Positions 4,673 to 13,195 of a stretch of DNA of 64,000 nt are shown in pieces. A program made the position numbers and the translations under genes. Source of the stretch: Amycolatopsis bartoniae (GTDB lineage: Bacteria > Actinomycetota > Actinomycetes > Mycobacteriales > Pseudonocardiaceae); the NCBI RefSeq assembly GCF_014191255.1, contig NZ_JACHWH010000008.1:62001-126000 (forward strand), in the 5' to 3' direction. The notes beneath the pieces are model-generated. The model saw only the letters and a list, made by a program, of their open reading frames with translations, did not search any database and was not told where the DNA came from. Each line of letters opens with the position of its first letter. Positions within the stretch are counted from its first letter, which is position 1.

Positions 4673-5068
4673 TCAGCCGTCGTCTGCGTGGTCGTATTTC
4701 TGTTGCGATGTCATGACGTCGGTGAGATGTTCGATCGACCATTCCTGCAGCGCACGTAGTGGTGCCTGCAGGCTCCGTCCCGCGTCGGTGAGCGCGTATT
4801 CGACCCGGACGGGGACTTCGGGGTGGACGGTGCGGCGGACCAGGCCGTCACGTTCCAGGCCACGCAGGGTCTGGGTCAGCATTTTCTGTGATATGCCTTC
4901 GATCCGGCGGCGCAGTTCGGAGAACCGGGCATCTCCCTCGGCGAGCACGCCCACGATCAGCACGGTCCAGCGATCGCCGATGCGGTCCAGGATGCGGCGG
5001 GTGGGACAGTCGGCGCGGTACGGGCTGCCCAGGATCGTGGGTACGGAATCCGTCGATGTGGTTACCAC
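4673..5068 (-). CDS. HxlR-family transcriptional regulator
   Basis: 131-residue winged-helix regulator. HxlR signatures are clear: CPTRRILDRIGDRWTVLIV at residues 21-39, FSELRRRIEGISQKMLTQTLRGLERDGLV for the recognition helix and wing, and VEYALTDAGRSL in the C-terminal half. The GTG start is chosen as the first in frame. It is divergent from the NAD(P)-binding protein at 5162, a common pairing in which an HxlR protein with a reactive Cys (here Cys21) senses quinones or electrophiles and controls a neighbouring reductase. The operator is probably in the short intergenic gap. Confidence 0.9.
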   Translation of the reverse strand: MVTTSTDSVPTILGSPYRADCPTRRILDRIGDRWTVLIVGVLAEGDARFSELRRRIEGISQKMLTQTLRGLERDGLVRRTVHPEVPVRVEYALTDAGRSLQAPLRALQEWSIEHLTDVMTSQQKYDHADDG

Positions 5069-5069
5069 A

Positions 5070-5081
5070 AAGTGCCTACTT
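5070..5081. promoter_or_regulatory. Candidate HxlR operator
   Basis: AAGT-GCCT-ACTT, a perfect 4+4 dyad one base upstream of the hxlR GTG and within the divergent hxlR/oxidoreductase gap. The short dyad of the form AGT-N4-ACT resembles HxlR/YodB-type sites. The support is pattern and position only. Confidence 0.35.
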
Positions 5082-5161
5082 CCCGTCGGGGACCAACGCT
5101 CTTACGGTAATCCGCGTGGGGCGGCACCAGTCAACCCCCAGCAATGAAAGGAATCCCTGCC

Positions 5162-5815
5162 TTGTCTCGTATCACGGTTATCGGCGGTACCGGCTATGCC
5201 GGGTCGGCCATCGTCGAACAGGCCGCGGGTCGGGGCCACCAGGTCACCGCGCTGAGCAACAGTGCGCCCGAGGTGCCCGTCCCTTCCGTCAATTACGTCA
5301 TGGGCGATGCCACCGACGCCGCCGCCCTGGCGCCGGTCATTGCCGGAGCCGACGTGGTCGTCGCCGCGTTGGCGCCGCGCGGGCCGATGACGGGCGTGTT
5401 CCGCGCGGTCAACCGCACCATCGCCGAACTGGCCGACCAGGCCGGCGCGCGGCTGTTCGTCGTCGGCGGCTACTCCTCACTGCGACCGGCGCCCGGGGCG
5501 GACCGCTTCGTGACCGATCTGAGCGACGTCCCGGCCGCGGTGCACGACGAAGTCCTGGCCGGTGCCGCGCTCATCATCGAAGACCTGCCGGCGACCCCGG
5601 ACAGCCTGGACTGGGTATTCGTCAGCCCGGCCTTCCGTTTCGGCGCCCACGCACCGAGCGAACCACTGGGCCGCTACCAGCTCGGTGACGACGTCGCCAT
5701 CGACCCGAAAACCGGCGGCGTGATCGCGGTCGCCGACTACGCCCTCGGATTCGTCGACCTCATCGAGAAGAACCAACACCACCGCACCCACGTCAACCTC
5801 GGCAACCCCACCTGA
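5162..5815 (+). CDS. NAD(P)H-binding oxidoreductase, NmrA/YwnB-like
   Basis: 217-residue Rossmann protein of the atypical SDR group. The dinucleotide motif ITVIGGTGYAGSAIV begins at residue 3. The C-terminal part GVIAVADYALGFVDLIE matches the conserved DxA.a.vDlie ending of NAD(P)H-binding YwnB/NmrA proteins. The start is placed at TTG 5162 because AAAGGA lies 10 nt upstream, whereas the in-frame ATG at 5144 has no ribosome site. It is divergent from hxlR at 4673, so it is probably under HxlR control and involved in reductive stress or quinone detoxification. The substrate is unknown. Confidence 0.85.
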   Translation: MSRITVIGGTGYAGSAIVEQAAGRGHQVTALSNSAPEVPVPSVNYVMGDATDAAALAPVIAGADVVVAALAPRGPMTGVFRAVNRTIAELADQAGARLFVVGGYSSLRPAPGADRFVTDLSDVPAAVHDEVLAGAALIIEDLPATPDSLDWVFVSPAFRFGAHAPSEPLGRYQLGDDVAIDPKTGGVIAVADYALGFVDLIEKNQHHRTHVNLGNPT

Positions 5816-5886
5816 GCGATTACACGTCGCACCGTCTGTGGAGGCTGCGGGTGATCGGAGTGGCAAACGAAGAAGGGGTCTTGACC

Positions 5887-5997
5887 ATGCACATCTTCAT
5901 CACCAGAGCGACCGGCTGGACCGGCTCGGCCGCCGTCGACCACCTCCTCGAAGGGGGTCACGAGGTCAACTGTGCCGGTCAGCAGGGTTCGCCGTCA
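5887..5997 (+). pseudogene. Truncated NAD-dependent epimerase/SDR N-terminus
   Basis: MHIFIT-ATGWTGSAAVDHLLEGGHEV is the first beta-alpha-beta unit of an extended SDR (expected TGATGWxGS; Gly is replaced by Arg here). After about 30 residues the similarity stops and the reading frame becomes arginine-rich nonsense. It is a truncated copy, probably of a paralogue of the intact oxidoreductase just upstream. Confidence 0.6.
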
Positions 5998-5999
5998 GC

Positions 6000-6488
6000 C
6001 GGGTTTCGACACGGGAAGGACACCCGCGCTGGTCGCGTGCCTGAAAGCTTCGAGGACTTCGCGGGGAGTGTGAGCCCTGGGGCGCGATCGACTCTGGTCA
6101 GATCCCAGGTAGGTCGCACCAGGGCGAGATCTCGAAGTCGTCGTGGCCTGGTGCGAGAGTGCCCGCACCGTGGTCGGCGCGGGGCCAGGATGTCACCGCA
6201 GGCTGCCCGTGTCGTTCCGGTGAGGGGGCCTAGGCGCAGCGCGGCCGCTTCGATCGTGCCGTCGTAGCCGGCCTCCGACAGGACCGCTGTGGCGCCGGCC
6301 AGGATGCGCCGCGCGAGTTGCCCGTCCGGCAGCGGAGCCTGCCGGTCACATGAAAGTGCCTTCTTCACCGGTCGACCGTGACGCCGTTACCGTGATCTCC
6401 GAAGGCGAACCGCCCGCAGATCAGTTCGCGGCAATGCGGAAAGCAAATCCTGAGCGCTTCGAGCGCGATGTCAAGACAGGAGTTTCAG
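6000..6488. other. Decayed DNA upstream of the catabolic operon
   Basis: About 490 bases between the truncated SDR and the operon. It contains the TetR remnant given separately (6212-6335), an 8-bp inverted pair GCACCAGG/CCTGGTGC around 6116-6157, and an open frame from 6350 that runs into the methyltransferase gene without a recognisable domain. The operon promoter must lie here, but I see no convincing -35/-10 pair. Confidence 0.4.
6212..6335 (-). pseudogene. TetR-family regulator remnant
   Basis: The minus strand reads LARRILAGATAVLSEAGYDGT, the typical first helix and turn of a TetR DNA-binding domain, followed by a corrupted HTH (IEAAALRLGPLTGTT instead of the usual TIEAIAxRAGVSxxT). 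The similarity then ends. It is divergent from the catabolic operon at 6489 and may be the vestige of its former repressor; that link is inference from position. Confidence 0.5.
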
Positions 6489-7274
6489 ATGAACTACAAC
6501 ATTGGCGAAACCCGCGGCAAGGCGACACCCTGGGACTACATTCGCGCGAGAGACGTCGAAAAGATGGGTGACATTCTGCACGACCCGGACGAACAAGCAC
6601 GCTGGGCTTTGGCATTCCTGGTCGCCGGAGGTTTGCCGTACATGTGGAACGAACTCGCGTCGAACATCCAGGACATCTGCTACGCACTGCTGGAACTAGA
6701 CGAAGGTGACCGAGTCCTCATCGTTGGCGAGGAAGTCGAATCGTGCGGCTGGAAAAGGGGAGTCGAGGCCCACATCGGCTCGACCGGCTCAATAGACCTC
6801 TTCGAAATCATCGAAGAAGGCAACGCGGCCATGTACGCGGGCCGACATGGACGCAACGGCCTGCTCGCGGCCTGGGAATGGACGTACACACACGACACTC
6901 CTGACAACACCTACGACGCTATCCTGGTCGCACAAGCCGCTCAACACACCGACGACTGGGTAGAGGCCGGCCAGGAATTCCTGCGGGTCCTCAAACCAGG
7001 CAGGCGCATCGTCTCTGCCGAGTCACTTATCCCGGGCGGCGGCGGACTCACTGCCTCCATCGATACGGACATCCAGGTCCAAACATGGTTCGACCGGATC
7101 ATCAGTCCCTTGCAACTCAAGCTCTCCGAGCTCGGGGCCTACACCGCGGAAGAGATCAAGGACGCGTTCGGTGACGGAGTGGAGCGGCCCGGGACGCTCG
7201 AATGGCGAGGTGTGCACGTCTTCTGGGGGCGCAAGCCGCTGCCATCTCAAGCCTCGACCAGCACGACAGCCTGA
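6489..7274 (+). CDS. SAM-methyltransferase-like protein, first gene of operon
   Basis: 261-residue protein with the shape of a class I methyltransferase. A first strand VLIVGEEVESCGW stands where the GxGxG SAM motif is expected, then an acidic segment SIDLFEIIEEG, a strand YDAILVAQAAQHTDDW (motif II-like), and FLRVLKPGRRIVSAE (motif III, the usual LKPGG region). The glycine-rich loop is degenerate, so SAM binding is uncertain. The start is at ATG 6489 with AGGAG about 6 nt upstream, rather than an in-frame ATG 21 nt earlier. It leads eight co-directional genes, most of them overlapping, that look like an aromatic ring-cleavage pathway. Either it methylates or demethylates the substrate, or it has lost SAM chemistry and acts in another way. 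Confidence 0.65.
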   Translation: MNYNIGETRGKATPWDYIRARDVEKMGDILHDPDEQARWALAFLVAGGLPYMWNELASNIQDICYALLELDEGDRVLIVGEEVESCGWKRGVEAHIGSTGSIDLFEIIEEGNAAMYAGRHGRNGLLAAWEWTYTHDTPDNTYDAILVAQAAQHTDDWVEAGQEFLRVLKPGRRIVSAESLIPGGGGLTASIDTDIQVQTWFDRIISPLQLKLSELGAYTAEEIKDAFGDGVERPGTLEWRGVHVFWGRKPLPSQASTSTTA

Positions 7275-7306
7275 CGTCCTGGCCCGTCGCGAAAGAAGGA
7301 GAGGAC

Positions 7307-7867
7307 GTGTCAACGCCCACCAATGCACCGAAGCGGATGCAGCCGAAAGCTGTTCGTCGGGTTGTGACCGGTCACGACGCCACGGGGAAGGCAGTAGTCG
7401 TCGATGACGGTCAGTCACCGGACATTGAGGTCATCGAGGACGCGCGAATCGCGATCGCAGACATGTGGCGGATGTCGAGCGTGCCGACTTCCGTAGATGC
7501 GTGGGAAAGGCGAGATCCCAGCGCGCCCACGACTATCGTTATAACCGGCGGCCTGAACTTCGCGATCTTGCAATTCGATCCGATCCCGGAGGGCACGGCC
7601 ATCGACGGCGAGGCGGCGTTCGCAGACGCCCACGTCGAGAACGCTCGGCACCCGGCCATGCATCGGACAGAGACCGTTGATTTCGGCATCGTCATCAGCG
7701 GTTCGATCACCCTGCTCCTCGACACGGAGGACGTTACCTTATCCGCTGGTGACGTCGTGATTCAGCGCGGAACCAACCATGCCTGGGAGAACCGAGGCGA
7801 CGTGCCGTGCCAGATGGCATTTGTGATCGTGGACGCACAGTCCCTTCCGTCAGGAACGTTCAAATGA
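7307..7867 (+). CDS. Cupin-domain protein
   Basis: 186-residue protein with a C-terminal double-stranded beta-helix. HPAMHRTETVDFGIVISG, then SITLLLDTEDVTLSAGDVVIQRGTNHAW, correspond to cupin motifs 1 and 2, with metal-type His and Glu residues (H..TE...) and the final NHAW histidine. The start is GTG 7307 with GGAGAG just upstream; an ATG 105 nt earlier would overlap the methyltransferase. It could be a metal-dependent oxygenase, isomerase or decarboxylase for a pathway intermediate. Its stop overlaps the ATG of the LigA gene (ATGA), implying translational coupling. Confidence 0.75.
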   Translation: MSTPTNAPKRMQPKAVRRVVTGHDATGKAVVVDDGQSPDIEVIEDARIAIADMWRMSSVPTSVDAWERRDPSAPTTIVITGGLNFAILQFDPIPEGTAIDGEAAFADAHVENARHPAMHRTETVDFGIVISGSITLLLDTEDVTLSAGDVVIQRGTNHAWENRGDVPCQMAFVIVDAQSLPSGTFK

Positions 7868-8238
7868 TGCCGCTGCCCTCGTTCGACCTCAAGGAGCCCG
7901 GCACTGTGCAATTCACGGCTGAGCGTGCCTTCGATGGCAGGCACCTCACAGCCTTCTGTCTTTCGTTGCGCGACGAATCGAACCGAGCGGCGTACCTGAC
8001 CGACCCGGATGCCTACATGCAGCGCTACGCGCTCACCGCCGCGGACCGCGACCTCGTACGCGCCCGAGACTGGACTGCCCTGCTGCGCCGTGGCGCCCAT
8101 CTGCAGGCAGTGCTGAAGCTCTGCGCTACTCACGGCGGAAACCTGTTCGACATTGGAGCACACAACGCCGGCGTGAGCGTGACCGAACTTCTTGCCGCAT
8201 GCCCGCGGATTGTCTCCGCCGTTCCGGGAAAGGCTTGA
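7864..8238 (+). CDS. LigA-like small subunit of extradiol dioxygenase
   Basis: 124-residue protein. The segment LSLRDESNRAAYLTDPDAYMQRYALTAADRDLVRARDW, then LLRRGAHLQAVLKL, matches the all-helical LigA domain (alpha subunit of protocatechuate 4,5-dioxygenase). In LigAB enzymes this small subunit caps the active site of the catalytic LigB subunit, which is the very next gene. The start at ATG 7864 overlaps the cupin stop. The N-terminal 25 residues precede the domain and carry no motif. The subunit pairing is strongly supported by adjacency. Confidence 0.85.
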   Translation: MMPLPSFDLKEPGTVQFTAERAFDGRHLTAFCLSLRDESNRAAYLTDPDAYMQRYALTAADRDLVRARDWTALLRRGAHLQAVLKLCATHGGNLFDIGAHNAGVSVTELLAACPRIVSAVPGKA

Positions 8239-8239
8239 G

Positions 8240-9094
8240 ATGGCTCGTATCATCGGCGGACTCGGCATTTCGCATACCCCGTCCATGGGGGTCGAGTTCG
8301 ATCGAGCAGCCGACAACGGCGCTGTCGCGACCGAGTGGCAACCCTGGTTCGAGGGCACCCGGCCAGCACGGGCGCTCCTTGAACGACTGCGGCCGGATCA
8401 CCTCGTGATCGTTTACAACGATCATCTCAACCACTTCACCCTCGACGCGTACCCGACGTTCGCCATCGGCGTCGGTAACGGTTTCCCTCAGATGGACGAA
8501 GGCTGGGGACTGCGTCCCCTCCCCGAACTCCCCGGTGACCACAGGTGGGGCATCCACCTCACGGAGCAACTCATCGAGCGTGACTTCGACCTCACGGTCT
8601 GTCAAGGGCTGGGAGTCGACCACGGCATCTTTTCGTGGCTGCCCTACCTGCTTGAGCCACCGTGGACGGTGCCGATCACTCCGATCGCGGTCAACATGAT
8701 CCGAGAACCACTGCCACGCCCTCAGCGGCTGGCCGACCTCGGCCTGGCTCTGCGTGCGGCGGTCGAGGCTCATCCGTCCGAAGAGCGCGTACTCATTGTC
8801 GCTACGGGCGGTATGTCCCATCAGATCAGCGGAGCAAGATTCGGCATCGCCAACGCTGACTTGGACAAGTGGTTCCTTCAGCAGCTGCCCGCGCATCTCG
8901 ACGATCTGCTCAAGATCGAGGTGCGGGAACTTCAGCGGCTCGGAGGGACAGAAGCCTCTGAGCTCGCCCTCTGGTATGCCATGCGTGCGGCACTGGGACC
9001 GCAGGCGGGAGTCGAGTATTCCTTCTCCAGCTTCCCAAAGATCACCGGTTGTGGGGTGCTGGTGATGACTGAGCCCGAAGAGGCGATCCGATGA
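8240..9094 (+). CDS. LigB-like class III extradiol ring-cleavage dioxygenase
   Basis: 284-residue catalytic subunit of a type II/class III extradiol dioxygenase. Conserved residues are visible: SHTPSM with His12, NDHLNHF around residues 60-66, a VDHG His at 127, GGMSHQ with His194 (the usual catalytic base) and GTEASEL with Glu238. In Sphingobium LigB, His12, His61 and Glu242 bind Fe(II) and His195 is catalytic, so the constellation is complete. It should cleave a catechol-type ring next to a hydroxyl with O2. The substrate could be protocatechuate, gallate, a methylated derivative or something else, because the accompanying genes are not the standard lig or gal set. Confidence 0.88.
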   Translation: MARIIGGLGISHTPSMGVEFDRAADNGAVATEWQPWFEGTRPARALLERLRPDHLVIVYNDHLNHFTLDAYPTFAIGVGNGFPQMDEGWGLRPLPELPGDHRWGIHLTEQLIERDFDLTVCQGLGVDHGIFSWLPYLLEPPWTVPITPIAVNMIREPLPRPQRLADLGLALRAAVEAHPSEERVLIVATGGMSHQISGARFGIANADLDKWFLQQLPAHLDDLLKIEVRELQRLGGTEASELALWYAMRAALGPQAGVEYSFSSFPKITGCGVLVMTEPEEAIR

Positions 9095-10014
9095 GAATCG
9101 GTACCGCCTTGCTGAACGGACAACCCGCCGTGGTCGCCGCCGCCAGCGACGACATGGCCGCGGCCGTGCATGCCTTCGACTCGATGGAGACACTCCTGGC
9201 CGCGCCCCGCGAGACGGCAAACGCCATCGTCGAAGAGGCGACCGCCTCCGCCCCGCGATTCGCGGTCGCTGAGCTCACCTGGCTCCCTCCCGTCCCTCGC
9301 CCTGGAAAGGTTCTCTGCGTCGCGCTGAACAACAGCGCCAACCCGGACCGGATCATCTCTGGCCCCCCGACACCGGCGCTGTTCACGAAGCCCACCACGA
9401 GCCTCACCGGGCATGACACTCCGCTGCGACTACGCGCTTCCTACGGGCGCGTGCACCCCGAGCCGGAGTTGGCGGTGGTCATCGGCATCGGCGGGTCCGA
9501 TATCCCACACGACCGCGCCCTGCGGCATGTGTACGGCTACACGGTGTTCAACGACCTCACCTCACCGACCCTCCGCGCCGAGGACACCTTTCACTACCGC
9601 GCCATCCATCCGTCGGATAGCGAACCGGACGGTGTCCGATACGTTGAAAGCTGGGTAACCTACCCGGCGCGTTACAAGGGCTCGGACACATTCGGCCCAA
9701 CCGGCCCGTGGATCGTCACGGCGGACGAAGTCGCGGACCCACACGCCCTGCGTATTGTCTGTCGGCACAACGGTCAGATCATCACCGATGACAACACCGC
9801 TAATCTGCGATTCAGCGTCGCTGAGGTGATCGCATTCGTTTCGTCGTACATGACCCTCGAGACTGGCGACGTCATCGCTATGGGCACCGCGTTGCGCCGC
9901 GCGAACTCGGGCGGTGGGGCCGTGCAGAATCTCGACCTCGTCGCGCGCGGCGGAACCGTCGAAGTCGAGATCGAGGGCCTCGGAGTGCTGCGCAACCATG
10001 TGGAGCACCGGTGA
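9091..10014 (+). CDS. Fumarylacetoacetate hydrolase-family protein
   Basis: 307-residue FAH-fold protein. The C-terminal catalytic domain shows YGRVHPEPELAVVIG (metal-binding Glu-x-Glu), YGYTVFNDLTSPTLR, a TGPWIVTADEV segment and the ending MGTALRRANSGGGAVQ plus GGTVEVEIEGLGVLRN, all characteristic of 2-hydroxyhepta-2,4-diene-1,7-dioate isomerase/acylpyruvase relatives. The Mg-dependent enzyme would hydrolyse, isomerise or decarboxylate a ring-cleavage product. It overlaps the dioxygenase stop by 4 nt. The exact reaction cannot be read from sequence. Confidence 0.88.
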   Translation: MRIGTALLNGQPAVVAAASDDMAAAVHAFDSMETLLAAPRETANAIVEEATASAPRFAVAELTWLPPVPRPGKVLCVALNNSANPDRIISGPPTPALFTKPTTSLTGHDTPLRLRASYGRVHPEPELAVVIGIGGSDIPHDRALRHVYGYTVFNDLTSPTLRAEDTFHYRAIHPSDSEPDGVRYVESWVTYPARYKGSDTFGPTGPWIVTADEVADPHALRIVCRHNGQIITDDNTANLRFSVAEVIAFVSSYMTLETGDVIAMGTALRRANSGGGAVQNLDLVARGGTVEVEIEGLGVLRNHVEHR

Positions 10015-10445
10015 CAGCCAGGTGTGTACCGCCCGCGGAACGCGCAGCGATCGAGGAACTCAATGCTCGCTTCGCCTGGGCTCTCGACCTAGGCGAGTTC
10101 GACAACTTGCGACAGGTGTTCACTTCCGAGGCGCGATACGTCAGCGGGGAAAGGATCTATGCGGGTGTCGACGCCATTGTCTCCAGATTCACGGCACGGA
10201 CAGGACCTCGCACGACCCGGCACGGCTGGAGTAGCCTGACGCTGCAGGCCACGGGCGACAAGATCTACGGCCTCAGCAGCTGGTATACCTTCGCCGCGAA
10301 CCAGGACGCGCCAATATCGGGAACCGGCGTCTATCTGGTGGCTGATTTCGTCGACATCTACGTCTCCATCGCCGACGTTGGTTGGCGCATTGCCGAGCGG
10401 ACAATTCACCCTGTATTCAAAGATGAGCGGTTGGCTCCAACATGA
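10011..10445 (+). CDS. SnoaL/NTF2-like protein
   Basis: 144-residue single-domain protein of the NTF2/SnoaL_4 group. IEELNARFAWALDLGEFDNLRQVFTSEARYV at the N-terminus and the closing strand VGWRIAERTI are typical. Members act as dehydratases, cyclases, isomerases or small oxygenase subunits. The start is GTG 10011, overlapping the preceding stop. In this operon it may dehydrate or isomerise an intermediate; that is inference from context. Confidence 0.75.
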   Translation: MTARCVPPAERAAIEELNARFAWALDLGEFDNLRQVFTSEARYVSGERIYAGVDAIVSRFTARTGPRTTRHGWSSLTLQATGDKIYGLSSWYTFAANQDAPISGTGVYLVADFVDIYVSIADVGWRIAERTIHPVFKDERLAPT

Positions 10446-11071
10446 ATTCGTTCCCTGACCAAGCTGAGGACTCCTTGGCTCGCCTGCGCGACGTGCCCAA
10501 GGCGCCGGGTCCGGCGCGCACTGCACTCCTGGGGCCCGAGGAACTGACCGCGGAGCAGGCCGAACTGCACGCCACAATCGCTCACGGTCCCAGAGCCGAA
10601 CAGACATCGGTCCCCCTGATCGACTGCGAAGGTAGGCTGCTTGGCCCATTCGCTTTGATGCTGCTCGCTCCCGCCGTCGGAGCAGCTGTCCAGCAAGTCG
10701 GTGCCGTCCTCCGCACCAGGACTGAGCTCTCACCCCGTTCACGGGAACTTGCGATACTCACCGTGGCGGCGCACCGTCGGTCGAGGTTCGAGTGGGAAGC
10801 CCATCAAGGCGCGGCCCTCGAGGCAGGGCTAGAGGTGGCGCAATTACAACAGATTCTGGACGGTGTGATTCCGGACGACCTGAGCGAGGAGGACCGCTGC
10901 GTCGTCAGCACCGCGAACGAACTGTTGACGCAAGGCTCACTCGGGGACGCTGACTACGAATCAGCCCTACGCATACTCGGCGAGAAACGGCTCGCCGAAC
11001 TGATCTGGTTGGTCGGCTACTACAGCATGCTCGCGGTAGCTCTCGCTACGCTGCGGCCGGAATCGTCATGA
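10442..11071 (+). CDS. Carboxymuconolactone decarboxylase-like protein
   Basis: 209-residue all-helical protein. LSPRSRELAILTVAAHRRSRFEWEAHQGAALEAGLEVAQLQQI is the CMD core, with the conserved Glu-Trp-x-x-His (EWEAH) arrangement of PcaC relatives and no CxxC, so it is not an AhpD-type peroxidase. A second half-domain (DRCVVSTANELLTQGSL to LIWLVGYYSMLAVAL) completes the fold. In the beta-ketoadipate route PcaC decarboxylates a lactone, followed by enol-lactone hydrolase PcaD; here the next gene is also an alpha/beta hydrolase. The overlap with both neighbours is 4 nt. Confidence 0.85.
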   Translation: MNSFPDQAEDSLARLRDVPKAPGPARTALLGPEELTAEQAELHATIAHGPRAEQTSVPLIDCEGRLLGPFALMLLAPAVGAAVQQVGAVLRTRTELSPRSRELAILTVAAHRRSRFEWEAHQGAALEAGLEVAQLQQILDGVIPDDLSEEDRCVVSTANELLTQGSLGDADYESALRILGEKRLAELIWLVGYYSMLAVALATLRPESS

Positions 11072-11847
11072 CGGCCTTCGTCGCTCGGGCCGGCACCGGG
11101 CTCCTTCGAGGAGACGATGTCGGCGAAGGAGACCCCCTCGTTTTCCTGCACGGCTTCTCACTTGACCGGCGCATGTGGGTTCACCAGACCAGCGCATTGT
11201 CGGAGTCCAGGCGAGTCGTGACATACGACCTGCGAGGATTCGGCGAGTCCTCGCCGCCGGAGCCGGTCCGACATCATGCAGACGACCTTATCGAACTGCT
11301 GGAGTACCAACAGTTCGATAGACCAGTCGATCTGGTGGGGCTATCGCTGGGAGCGAATGTCGCGCTGGCAGTCGCGGTCATGAGTCCGGAACGCGTACGC
11401 CGGCTTGTGCTGGCCTCACCCGGGCTCACCGGCCACAGATGGAGTGAAACTCGTCCCCCGGACGCCGCACTTGCGTATGCGCGCGTGCACAGCGTCGAAG
11501 AGACCAAGGAATATTGGCTCCGACATCCGATCTTCGCATCGTTGAATCAGCATCCGGACGCCAGTGACCGGGTTCGTCAGATGATTACTGACTACAGCGG
11601 CGAGCATTGGCGGGGCAGACACGTTACGGCCCCTCTGCCATCTGTGATGAGCAGACTCGCCGACACTGCCCTGCCGGTCCTGATCATCAATGGCGAATGG
11701 GACGTGCCAGGCTACCTGGACATTGGCAACGTTCTCGTAGAGTCGATTGCGGGCGCCGAGCGAGTAGTTCTCGCGCAGTGCGGTCACATGGCACCGCTGG
11801 AACAACCGGAAAAGTTCAATGAGCTTCTCCGGCGATTTCTTGCATAG
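11068..11847 (+). CDS. Alpha/beta hydrolase, PcaD-like
   Basis: 259-residue alpha/beta hydrolase. The oxyanion-hole segment FLHGFSLDRRMW, nucleophile elbow GLSLGAN (Ser), acid region INGEWD (Asp) and CGHMAPLEQPEKFN (His) form a full catalytic triad. Length and motif spacing resemble 3-oxoadipate enol-lactonases and meta-cleavage product hydrolases. It is the last gene of the operon; the next 350 bases hold only decayed DNA. It probably hydrolyses an enol-lactone or a C-C bond in a ring-cleavage product. Confidence 0.88.
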   Translation: MTAFVARAGTGLLRGDDVGEGDPLVFLHGFSLDRRMWVHQTSALSESRRVVTYDLRGFGESSPPEPVRHHADDLIELLEYQQFDRPVDLVGLSLGANVALAVAVMSPERVRRLVLASPGLTGHRWSETRPPDAALAYARVHSVEETKEYWLRHPIFASLNQHPDASDRVRQMITDYSGEHWRGRHVTAPLPSVMSRLADTALPVLIINGEWDVPGYLDIGNVLVESIAGAERVVLAQCGHMAPLEQPEKFNELLRRFLA

Positions 11848-11885
11848 CAGCGAGACGGGTCGAAGCGCTGCCGTGAGCCGACTGC

Positions 11886-12043
11886 CGGTCGTACCTCGCG
11901 CGGGCCGCCTGAAGATTCCCTCGATGCGTGGCTGCCCAGGCGGCGAGTACCTCCAATGGAACGAGCAACGTGCGACCGAACTCCGTCAGTTCGTACTCGA
12001 CGCGCGGCGGCAACGTGGCGCAGACGGTACTCCACCCCGACCG
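11886..12043 (-). pseudogene. HxlR regulator C-terminal remnant
   Basis: The minus strand reads PPRVEYELTEFGRTLLVPLE, then VLAAWAATHRGNLQAARARYD, the unmistakable second half of an HxlR-family protein. Its N-terminal half is missing: upstream (higher coordinates) the same DNA becomes a DNA methyltransferase fragment. The junction lies around 12035-12043. No start codon or promoter is retained. Confidence 0.7.
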
Positions 12044-12196
12044 CGCGCCGCCCGAGCCGGACGGCTTCCACCAGGATCGTGCCGACACCGCACATCGGAT
12101 CGAGCACCAGCTCGCCGGGAGGCGTGTAGCGGACAACGGCTGGCGGACGACCTCCGGCAGCATCTTCGCCGGATGCGCGGTCGAGGTCGGCACGTA
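12034..12196 (-). pseudogene. DNA methyltransferase C-terminal remnant
   Basis: The minus strand reads PTSTAHPAKMLPEVV and, after a frame change, LVLDPMCGVGTILVEAVRLGRRAVGVEY. HPAKM followed by the DPMxGxGT SAM motif and a VGVEY segment is typical of site-specific DNA methylases of the N4/N6 (TRM11-like/D12) groups carried on mobile elements. Only about 50 codons remain, fused end-on to the HxlR remnant. Confidence 0.65.
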
Positions 12197-12928
12197 GTTG
12201 TTCTTACGCTGCGTTGCTGGCGAGGACTGCTCGCTGTTCTGTGGGCGCTGCAAGCGAGCGGGCATCACCCAGCGGCTCATCGTCCAGCACACCGTCAACT
12301 CCCGAGGCAGCGAATACACCTACTTCTTCTGCCGCAACAAGCAGAACGGCAGCTGCGAAGCCCCGCACATCAACGTCGCCCTCATCGAAGACGCGGTGGA
12401 GAACCACTACGCGACGATCCGCTTCAGTGCCCAGTTCGTCGCCACCGTCCGCGCCGAGGTCGCCCGCGCCATCGACGAGCAAGAAGCCTCCGAGCGACTG
12501 CTCCACAAACAACCCACCACCGAGTTGAAGTCGCTGGACACCCGCGAAGAGAACCTCATCGAACTGGCGGCCGATTCCACCATCGGACAGGAGAAGATCA
12601 GGACCAAGCTCCGCGAGATCGCCCGCCAACGACGACGCCTGACCGAACGGCTCACCACCACGACCGAGAACCTTTCCGACAGCGCCCGGCTCATCGAGGC
12701 CGCGCTCACCCTGCTGGAGAACCCCCAAGAGCTCTACCGCCGCTGCGACGAGCAGCAACGTCGGATGCTCAACCAGGCGATCTTCCATAGTCTCTACGTC
12801 GATGACGACCAGATCGCCGACCACGGTCTCCGGGAGCCCTTCGCCCAACTGCACGCCGTCCAGAGCGACTGGCAGAGCACCGACGTGACCCTGCCGGAGC
12901 CACGAACCGACACTCGGCCCCGACATGC

Positions 12929-12966
12929 CAACAGGGCCACCTCCCGAAAGGGAGGCAGCCCTGTTG
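12929..12966 (-). terminator. Hairpin downstream of tRNA-Ala
   Basis: Perfect arms CAACAGGGC (12929-12937) and GCCCTGTTG (12958-12966) enclose an inner CTCCC-gaaa-GGGAG stem. On the minus strand it lies about 70 nt past the tRNA-Ala 3' end and is its probable terminator. There is no long U-tract. Confidence 0.7.
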
Positions 12967-13035
12967 CTACCGACGGTGTCCAGGTCCTACTAGGCAGCGT
13001 TGTTTCGGTGCCGTGTTCTGGTAAGACCCCTAAGG

Positions 13036-13108
13036 TGGAGCTAAGGGGACTCGAACCCCTGACCCCCTCACTGCCAGTGAGGTGCGCTACCAGCTGCGCC
13101 ATAGCCCC
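13036..13108 (-). tRNA. tRNA-Ala (GGC)
   Basis: 73-nt tRNA on the minus strand. The acceptor stem GGGGCTA pairs with TAGCTCC, followed by discriminator A; CCA is not encoded. The anticodon arm is CCTCA-CTGGCAG-TGAGG with anticodon GGC (alanine codons GCC/GCU). The T-arm contains the GTTCGAGTC core. It lies at the junction between the decayed island and normal high-GC chromosome, and the serine recombinase frame runs into its antisense strand. Confidence 0.95.
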
Positions 13109-13195
13109 GTGTTGTTGCTGAGAAGTACTCTACAAGAACCCTGCACGAACCTTGCACGGGGGGTCCACAACCACGGGACCCCCCGTGCGGCGAGG

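Follow-up and report, generated by a model that had tools for sequence, protein, structure and literature searches.

Gene content and layout of the operon

The 64,000-bp stretch of the Amycolatopsis bartoniae genome analysed here (contig NZ_JACHWH010000008.1, positions 62,001 to 126,000; hereafter the window) carries eight intact open reading frames (ORFs) on one strand at window positions 6489-11847. These include both subunits of a LigAB-type ring-opening dioxygenase, and we tentatively read the group as an imported catabolic operon for an aromatic acid, perhaps a methoxylated one of plant origin. An original prediction made from the sequence alone had given the order of the eight gene families and described the genes as tightly packed, and on both points it agrees with our ORF list and Pfam searches, as every frame is open at those coordinates and each product matches the family named for it.

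On the forward strand, the operon begins with a methyltransferase-like (MT-like) protein of 261 aa (6489-7274), whose Methyltransf_11 match covers residues 143-180 only and scores 26.2 bits against a cut-off of 21.2, and a Cupin_2 protein with a GTG start (7307-7867). These are followed by the LigA-type alpha subunit of an extradiol dioxygenase (7864-8238; Pfam LigA), the LigB-type catalytic subunit (8240-9094; Pfam LigB), and an FAH-family enzyme of a subfamily marked by the motifs ALNNSAN and RVHPEPEL (9091-10014; Pfam FAA_hydrolase). The last three genes encode a SnoaL-like protein of NTF2 fold with a GTG start, predicted to be a tautomerase or isomerase (10011-10445; SnoaL_4), a CMD-family protein lacking a CxxC motif, predicted to be a decarboxylase or isomerase (10442-11071; Pfam CMD), and an alpha/beta hydrolase predicted to act on a (methyl) ester (11068-11847; Pfam Abhydrolase). 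The seven junctions are, in order, a 32-bp gap, a 4-bp overlap, a 1-bp gap between LigA and LigB, and four further 4-bp overlaps, such that five of the seven are stop-start overlaps. A scan of 6200-12200 for sigma-70-like promoters gave 0 matches with 1.1 expected by chance, and the sole terminator-like match in that interval is on the opposite strand, with 3.2 expected by chance; it is the spacing of the genes that suggests co-transcription of all eight.

The predicted ring-opening dioxygenase

In a three-protein alignment, residues H12, H62, H128, H194 and E238 of LigB are invariant, and thus the complete active site first proposed from His12, His194 and Glu238 holds and also takes in H62 and H128. 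We take H12, H62 and E238 to be the Fe ligands by homology. With LigA and LigB domains, these Fe ligands and a catalytic histidine pair all present, the enzyme has the features of a type II (LigAB) extradiol dioxygenase.

H128 and H194 align with the catalytic His124 and His192 of DesB (roles from PMC3962378). In the portion of that source on which we draw, DesB binds the carboxyl of gallate via Thr13, Thr267, Tyr391' and Tyr412', and its Glu377' interacts with OH(5), the third hydroxyl of gallate (PMC3962378). Counting residues on the alignment, DesB Thr13 and Thr267 correspond to Thr13 and Thr269 of the window LigB, and the position of Glu377', a glutamate in gallate dioxygenases, is occupied by Leu84 of the window LigA, with leucine also present at this position in the two plasmid-borne relatives described below (loci L004 and L005). 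Tyr412' lies beyond the LigA alignment. Because the two threonines are kept and Glu377' is replaced, the active site favours an aromatic acid other than gallate as the substrate.

The window LigB is 31-44% identical to LigB genes sampled in other genomes. Matches at E <= 1e-40 occur in 42 of 397 order-sample genomes, the best outside this genome being 42% identical. A midpoint-rooted FastTree phylogeny was built from 76 sequences, namely those of 73 of the 78 loci, that of the window and those of two enzymes of solved structure. In it, the window LigB and those of seven related loci form a clade of 8 members (support 0.999) to which neither DesB and LigB nor the ordinary LigB proteins of the order sample belong. 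Loci L002, L003, L097, L110 and L124 were omitted from this tree because their LigB matches were too short, and L121/L126 and L122/L127 are identical genes that were entered twice. A second, distant LigB-like gene is present in the same genome on contig C3 (L083, 9981-11197; 131 bits against a cut-off of 290). The small gene after it reads as LigA, with no NCBIfam match, and a neighbouring gene reads as a CoA-transferase.

Recurrence of the LigAB-type core

A tblastn search of 72,556 plasmid records with LigB gave matches in 149, the best being in Rhodococcus opacus DSM 44186 (72%) and R. pyridinivorans 4-4 (55%). Both Rhodococcus plasmids carry LigA, LigB, FAH, SnoaL, CMD and hydrolase genes in the same order as the window, placed after genes for a cytochrome P450, a ferredoxin and a ferredoxin reductase, the last of which overlaps LigA by 4 bp in both. 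Identities to the window proteins, given for R. opacus and R. pyridinivorans in turn, are 71 and 54% for LigB, 67 and 54% for FAH, 64 and 42% for LigA, 54 and 38% for SnoaL, 54 and 45% for CMD, and 50 and 40% for the hydrolase. Since the last six genes are collinear on two plasmids at 38-71% protein identity, sequence comparison confirms that their order is not a product of chance.

Using one LigB sequence as the query for related loci gave nothing, and it was a pattern scan of 84,980 species genomes built on an FAH alignment that retrieved 40 loci, which with the two plasmids make 42, several of them on short contigs. Window-type LigAB is present in seven: the two plasmids and genomes of Chitinasiproducens (L052), Phytohabitans (L053), Trebonia (L055), Desertimonas (L056) and Pusillimonas (L058), in all five of which LigA, LigB, FAH and the hydrolase recur. 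The window-type hydrolase is found in all seven. SnoaL follows FAH in six and in L052 is instead upstream on the other strand, and CMD is in line in two, elsewhere in the locus in two and not found in three. (The window SnoaL and CMD genes and the L005 CMD gene were missed by a simple gene caller and were placed by ORF coordinates, tblastn and annotation.) As such, the proposed search for the same gene order in other bacteria succeeds for the six-gene core on the Rhodococcus plasmids and fails for the full set of eight, as the MT-like and cupin genes occur in none of the 42 loci; what recurs is a unit of five or six genes.

The genes preceding LigA differ among these relatives. A P450 gene is upstream in four of the seven, with products 54-73% alike among themselves; its nearest solved relative among 264 P450 sequences is 6g71 (E 6e-114), with the aromatic O-demethylase GcoA also matching (~5e-47). 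The 6g71 structure is that of CYP1232A24 of a papaverine-degrading Arthrobacter. In Pusillimonas, by our own gene calls, a VanA_C/Rieske oxygenase gene ends 9 bp before LigA, and the only NCBIfam match of its product at E <= 1e-20 is to 4beta-methylsterol monooxygenase, at 94.8 against a cut-off of 600. An annotated ring-hydroxylating dioxygenase alpha subunit in L004 clusters with this protein. Neither a P450 system nor a VanA_C Rieske gene was recognised before LigA in L052 or L055.

LigB and LigA loci from the order and phylum samples were fetched with flanks of ~1.5 kb, in which missing SnoaL, FAH or CMD matches say little. Hydrolase matches adjoining LigB are full-length in L121 and L122 and partial in L028 and L033 (34-37% over 109-124 aa). 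In the Pusillimonas phylum sample, two of the 30 fetched LigA loci have an alpha/beta hydrolase 24-27% like that of the window beside LigA-LigB, with no SnoaL, FAH or CMD match at E <= 0.01 and, in one of them (L127), a 4-oxalomesaconate (OMA) tautomerase gene nearby.

The FAH, SnoaL-like, CMD and hydrolase proteins

The NYxxHxxE motif of FAH-family C-C hydrolases and decarboxylases has a catalytic role, providing a His-Glu dyad. Where the solved relative 1gtt has LNYADHASE, the window FAH protein reads LNNSANPDR, i.e., NNxxNxxR in place of the motif, and because of this replacement its chemistry may differ from that of known FAH hydrolases. It retains E124, E126 and D155, presumably the metal site by homology. 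The ALNNSAN stretch is present in 42 of 43 FAH proteins, a count that is partly circular, as the search itself used two patterns, one of them CVALNNSA; the 21 proteins without CVALNNSA still have ALNNSAN but carry the other search pattern.

Candidate active-site residues are also conserved in the three remaining proteins: D26, R67, R70, H71 and D112 in all 18 SnoaL proteins, E102, E117 and H121 in all 12 CMD proteins, and Ser93, Asp212 and His240 in all eight hydrolases. CxxC, the hallmark of AhpD-type peroxidases in the CMD superfamily, is in none of the 12 CMD proteins, which sets them apart from that type. The suggestion that CMD and the hydrolase mimic PcaC and PcaD was rejected, as PcaD-type models require 256-430 bits, of which the hydrolase reaches 100-102 (101.6 against 255.85 for PcaD itself), and the CMD protein matched no NCBIfam model at E <= 0.01.

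The same FAH subfamily beside another ring opener

In 13 of the 42 loci, FAH and SnoaL are followed by a gene for a ~320-aa protein of VOC type, resembling catechol 2,3-dioxygenase. The L040 protein falls in the Glyoxalase (VOC) family and scores 257 bits with a catechol 2,3-dioxygenase model, whose cut-off is 320; those of L060 and L064 are only ~25% like it. Hosts of such loci include Microbacterium sp. BR1, Nesterenkonia, Kutzneria and Umezawaea. These clusters share with the window the FAH subfamily, the SnoaL family and, in seven of the 13, CMD, with a fragment of it at a contig edge in L054. They differ from the window in having a catechol 2,3-dioxygenase-type opener and in genes for a TRAP transporter (3 of 13), an ABC ATPase (3 of 13) and an aldehyde dehydrogenase (4 of 13), and the cluster of the window hydrolase, the P450 and the Rieske cluster are each absent from all 13. 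Thus, because LigAB-type and VOC-type loci both carry it, the FAH-SnoaL pair, often with CMD, is common to two unrelated ring openers. The idea that the two versions differ by a swap of the hydrolase for an aldehyde dehydrogenase was found to be only half supported, as the latter is in 4 of 13 VOC-type and 3 of 7 LigAB-type loci.

Among the other 22 loci, 15 have a cluster that includes an IclR regulator in L070, 13 have Bug-type binding proteins as judged by eye, and a further cluster, represented in L070 by a tannase-family protein, occurs in five. LigB-family matches are near the FAH gene in L061, L062 and L063 (37, 26 and 26%), and no ring opener was recognised in the rest. In the run L067-L075, from Pigmentiphaga and relatives, the FAH subfamily occurs with the IclR-type cluster, Bug-like proteins (by eye) and a class II aldolase cluster, with the tannase-family cluster also present in L068 and L070-L073; no ring-opening enzyme was recognised beside the FAH gene in these loci.

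The MT-like and cupin genes

By eye, the glycine-rich S-adenosylmethionine loop of the MT-like protein is altered. Relatives of this protein are rare: one in the 72,556 plasmid records (Streptomyces sp. NBC_01340), two among 393 other class-sample genomes, one of them 93% like a Streptomyces protein, and none at E <= 1e-20 among 396 other order genomes. In L085 and L137, an MT-like relative adjoins an FAH-family match and a gene read as VOC, which weakens the view of the MT-like gene as a chance neighbour, and the protein may be part of ring catabolism. It is our guess that it removes a methyl group rather than adding one. The MT-like relative of L136 has nothing more than VOC remnants near it, and no FAH match. 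Read by eye, the cluster of these three loci holds an FAD monooxygenase, VOC, FAH, MT-like and cupin-like proteins and an alcohol dehydrogenase; the VOC and FAH part seems lost in L136, the FAH match of L085 is in a different frame than ORF 7051-7770, and the cupin-like protein has no Pfam match at E <= 1e-8. Relatives of the window cupin occur in 122 plasmid records, and in the two that were opened (L086 and L087) an annotated FAH-family gene adjoins; we would guess this cupin to be a decarboxylase or an isomerase.

Foreign composition and surroundings

The GC content of the operon is 62.8%, compared to 71.2% for 13109-64000. GC at third codon positions (GC3) is 66.9-80.5% in the eight genes, whereas the 34 called genes longer than 150 aa to the right of a tRNA gene average 91.6%, with a minimum of 72.3%. 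This gap in GC3 supports a foreign origin of the operon by horizontal import, as had been supposed from the composition of single lines, although the 55-60% GC read from those lines was too extreme. At E <= 1e-70, the FAH protein was found in one of 394 class-sample genomes and one of 19 genomes of the genus, in both cases this genome itself, in searches of which that of the class sample scored at most ~5 candidates per genome.

The lower-GC stretch stops near a tRNA-Ala(ggc) gene (13034-13108, reverse strand), adjoining the zinc-ribbon end of a large serine recombinase. The latter is in a forward-strand frame at 12198-13121 that runs into the tRNA gene and in which Pfam found no resolvase domain; we regard it as a mobile-element relic outside the pathway. 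We can only guess at the tRNA gene being an insertion or attachment site: a 45-bp stretch of it occurs just once in the genome at <=3 mismatches, and a script comparing 14-mers of 12990-13130 with C8:22001-126000 output none in common.

By eye, gene fragments flank the operon at 5851-6368 and 11784-12319 and give the region the look of a worn island; they resemble the start of an epimerase-like gene and pieces of an HxlR-type regulator and an RNA methylase. Further upstream (4673-5815) is a divergent pair encoding an RrpB-like MarR/HxlR regulator (82 bits against a cut-off of 175) and an NAD(P)-binding NmrA-like protein.

Proposed function and alternatives

We propose an imported catabolic operon for an ortho-dihydroxylated aromatic acid, likely with a methoxy or other small substituent next to the catechol, a reading that we place a little short of even chances. 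LigAB, as an Fe(II) type-II extradiol dioxygenase, would open the ring. With a methoxy group at the cut carbon, the product would be a methyl ester, which the alpha/beta hydrolase would convert to the free carboxy-hydroxymuconate for the SnoaL-like protein to tautomerise. We infer these activities and the class of substrate from the genes and their company, and the presence of the window-type hydrolase in all seven LigAB-type loci and in none of the 13 VOC-type loci supports this reading. For FAH and CMD, we can offer guesses: they might then decarboxylate, isomerise or hydrate the product, and so either take the place of the GalB/GalC/GalD route or supply it with substrate. Of that route, GalD- and GalC-type genes are present at another site in this genome. 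The MT-like and cupin proteins, located where relatives often have a P450 system or a VanA_C-type Rieske protein, may prepare the substrate.

Several observations weigh against this proposal, for which substrate and enzyme roles are drawn from sequence and gene context. At the carboxyl site, DesB Tyr391' corresponds to Gly98 of the window LigA, and the L005 LigB has serine in place of Thr13. CMD is in line in only three of the eight LigAB-type loci including the window, and in L047, a VOC-type locus, the opposite strand carries an alpha/beta hydrolase match of 28%. Neither a P450 nor a Rieske gene belongs to the window operon itself; P450 genes do occur 25-29 kb upstream, but the three proteins that they encode are only 24-31% like the L004 enzyme. 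The L058 Rieske protein, with its low-scoring sterol monooxygenase match, is at best a putative O-demethylase. Finally, the likeness to the Mga system of Pseudomonas sp. NGC7 (see below) is one of fold, role and gene company without sequence alignment, and that system uses GalB, GalC and GalD, with no FAH or CMD step named in the sections of the source on which we rely (PMC12314914).

The best-surviving alternative, which we nevertheless consider unlikely, is ordinary meta-cleavage. LigAB would then act on a catechol whose side chain is an alkyl, acyl or longer group, the alpha/beta hydrolase would cleave the C-C bond of the meta-cleavage product, and FAH would serve as a hydratase. The hydrolase does match the HsaD (60 bits) and BphD (37 bits) models, and Leu94 and Gly98 of the window LigA, which replace Phe103 and Ala107 of SYK-6 LigA, could widen the pocket. 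However, the hydrolase is far under the cut-offs of both models (400 and 462), the two carboxyl-binding threonines are kept, the oxygenases upstream in relatives are of P450 or VanA_C type, and the scheme has no place for SnoaL and CMD.

More doubtful still is an operon of the conventional kind for 4,5-cleavage of gallate or protocatechuate. LigB scores 217 bits with the gallate dioxygenase model and as much as 260 bits with class III extradiol models, and the GalD- and GalC-type genes mentioned above would fit. Against this, LigB is below the cut-off of every NCBIfam model matched and outside the clades of DesB, LigB and its ordinary order relatives, the glutamate specific to gallate is a leucine, and the partner genes differ; moreover, the protocatechuate 4,5-dioxygenase cut-offs are missed by both LigA (TIGR02792, 56 against 108.6 bits) and LigB (172 against 837 bits, for a fused model).

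We give little credence to the degradation of an N-heterocycle such as a dihydroxypyridine, in which the hydrolase would be a deformylase and FAH a formylpyruvate hydrolase. The 4-hydroxypyridine route of Arthrobacter IN13 reportedly involves KpiB, an alpha/beta hydrolase, and a proposed FAH protein, KpiD, and PydA-type dioxygenases belong to the extradiol-3B-like superfamily; additionally, amidase-family genes of one cluster are present in three of the 13 VOC-type loci (L045, L047 and L051). Yet the IN13 ring opener, KpiC, is of the amidohydrolase family and not LigB, this amidase cluster, the only one sought, is in none of the seven LigAB-type loci, and benzoate-type substrates are indicated by the retained threonines and by LigA being a subunit of its own. 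Equally improbable is a decaying import, whose genes came together and no longer form a working pathway: the truncated recombinase, the flanking fragments and the few called genes around would suit it, but eight intact frames, kept active-site residues and start-stop overlaps do not.

Returning to the catabolic operon for a substituted aromatic acid, its recurrence suggests a broader possibility, which we advance with less confidence than the operon's own function. The FAH subfamily, a SnoaL-like tautomerase and often CMD might constitute an undescribed lower module, spread over actinobacteria and proteobacteria, that finishes hydroxymuconate-type products. Two unrelated openers, LigAB with its ester hydrolase and the catechol 2,3-dioxygenase type, would plug into it, as would several substrate-preparing systems: the P450, the Rieske protein and here the MT-like and cupin pair, possibly methyl-removing. 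If true, this would give actinobacteria a route for methoxylated aromatics independent of the known 2-pyrone-4,6-dicarboxylic acid (PDC, LigI) route or complete gal sets, provide enzymes usable in lignin conversion, and suggest a role open to experiment for three protein groups (an FAH subfamily, one group of SnoaL_4 and one of CMD) that databases name only by fold. That two unrelated dioxygenases feed into a single lower module would also neatly illustrate modular pathway evolution.

Comparison with known systems

In the open-licence literature, we found no published pathway assigned to this gene set or to homologous operons, in keeping with its initial description as uncharacterised. Protocatechuate 4,5-pathways of the LigAB/PcmA kind share the LigA and LigB folds and the Fe site with the window; they differ in that no LigC, LigI, LigJ or LigK is among the eight genes or adjoins them and in that the window LigB is in a different clade. 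DesB/GalA has the same catalytic histidines and the Thr13 and Thr267 positions, unlike the window, which has separate subunits, leucine for Glu377' and glycine for Tyr391'. The HpaG/HpcE-type decarboxylase-isomerases (1gtt and 1wzo) are the closest solved relatives of the FAH protein, yet it scores only 132 bits against an equivalog cut-off of 276.

The statement that the partners are neither the LigC/LigI/LigJ/LigK nor the GalB/C/D sets is correct for the operon, which none of them adjoins. The further conclusion that the pathway is not the standard one holds for the genes at the operon. Some lower-pathway genes are nevertheless present in the genome: contig C1 encodes an OMA tautomerase (503.4 bits, cut-off 440) adjoining a 4-carboxy-4-hydroxy-2-oxoadipate (CHA) aldolase of LigK type (334.9, cut-off 179). 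There (L132, 8371-11059; ~1.502-1.505 Mb), these two genes are side by side with that of a catechol 2,3-dioxygenase scoring over its cut-off, and a QuiC-like gene (569 bits, cut-off 1200) is ~3 kb away. The trio looks like a second ring-cleavage locus with a VOC opener and a gal-gene finish, its VOC protein being 42% like that of L040 and 60% like one in L127.

By analogy, the closest experimentally studied set is mgaABCD of Pseudomonas sp. NGC7, which acts on 3-O-methylgallate and whose Mga roles are labelled putative in the figure legend (PMC12314914). In the parts of that source used here, VanAB-type (VanA1B1) O-demethylation of syringate yields 3-O-methylgallate, the two-subunit LigAB-like MgaAB opens its ring, and the alpha/beta hydrolase MgaC is inferred to hydrolyse the methyl ester, an mgaC mutant converting syringate to PDC (95% mol/mol) without growing on syringate (PMC12314914). 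MgaD, of the SnoaL_4 family (pfam13577), is the proposed tautomerase before GalD, GalB and GalC (PMC12314914). Because VanAB of Rhodococcus ruber R1 reportedly converts syringate to 3-O-methylgallate and no further, an acid of this type could also arise in hosts such as the present one.

The window differs from NGC7, so far as that source extends, in having FAH and CMD built in, no adjoining GalB/C/D, and MT-like and cupin genes upstream. Shared with NGC7 are the two-subunit LigAB, an alpha/beta hydrolase of MenH type, for which MgaC would seem a better analogue than PcaD, and a SnoaL-like pfam13577 protein, and as a VanAB O-demethylase is near the NGC7 mga genes, so a VanA_C-type gene is near LigA in L058. 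With LigAB, alpha/beta hydrolase and SnoaL_4 together in the operon and the OMA tautomerase and CHA aldolase elsewhere in the genome, the window resembles an Mga-type system in kind.

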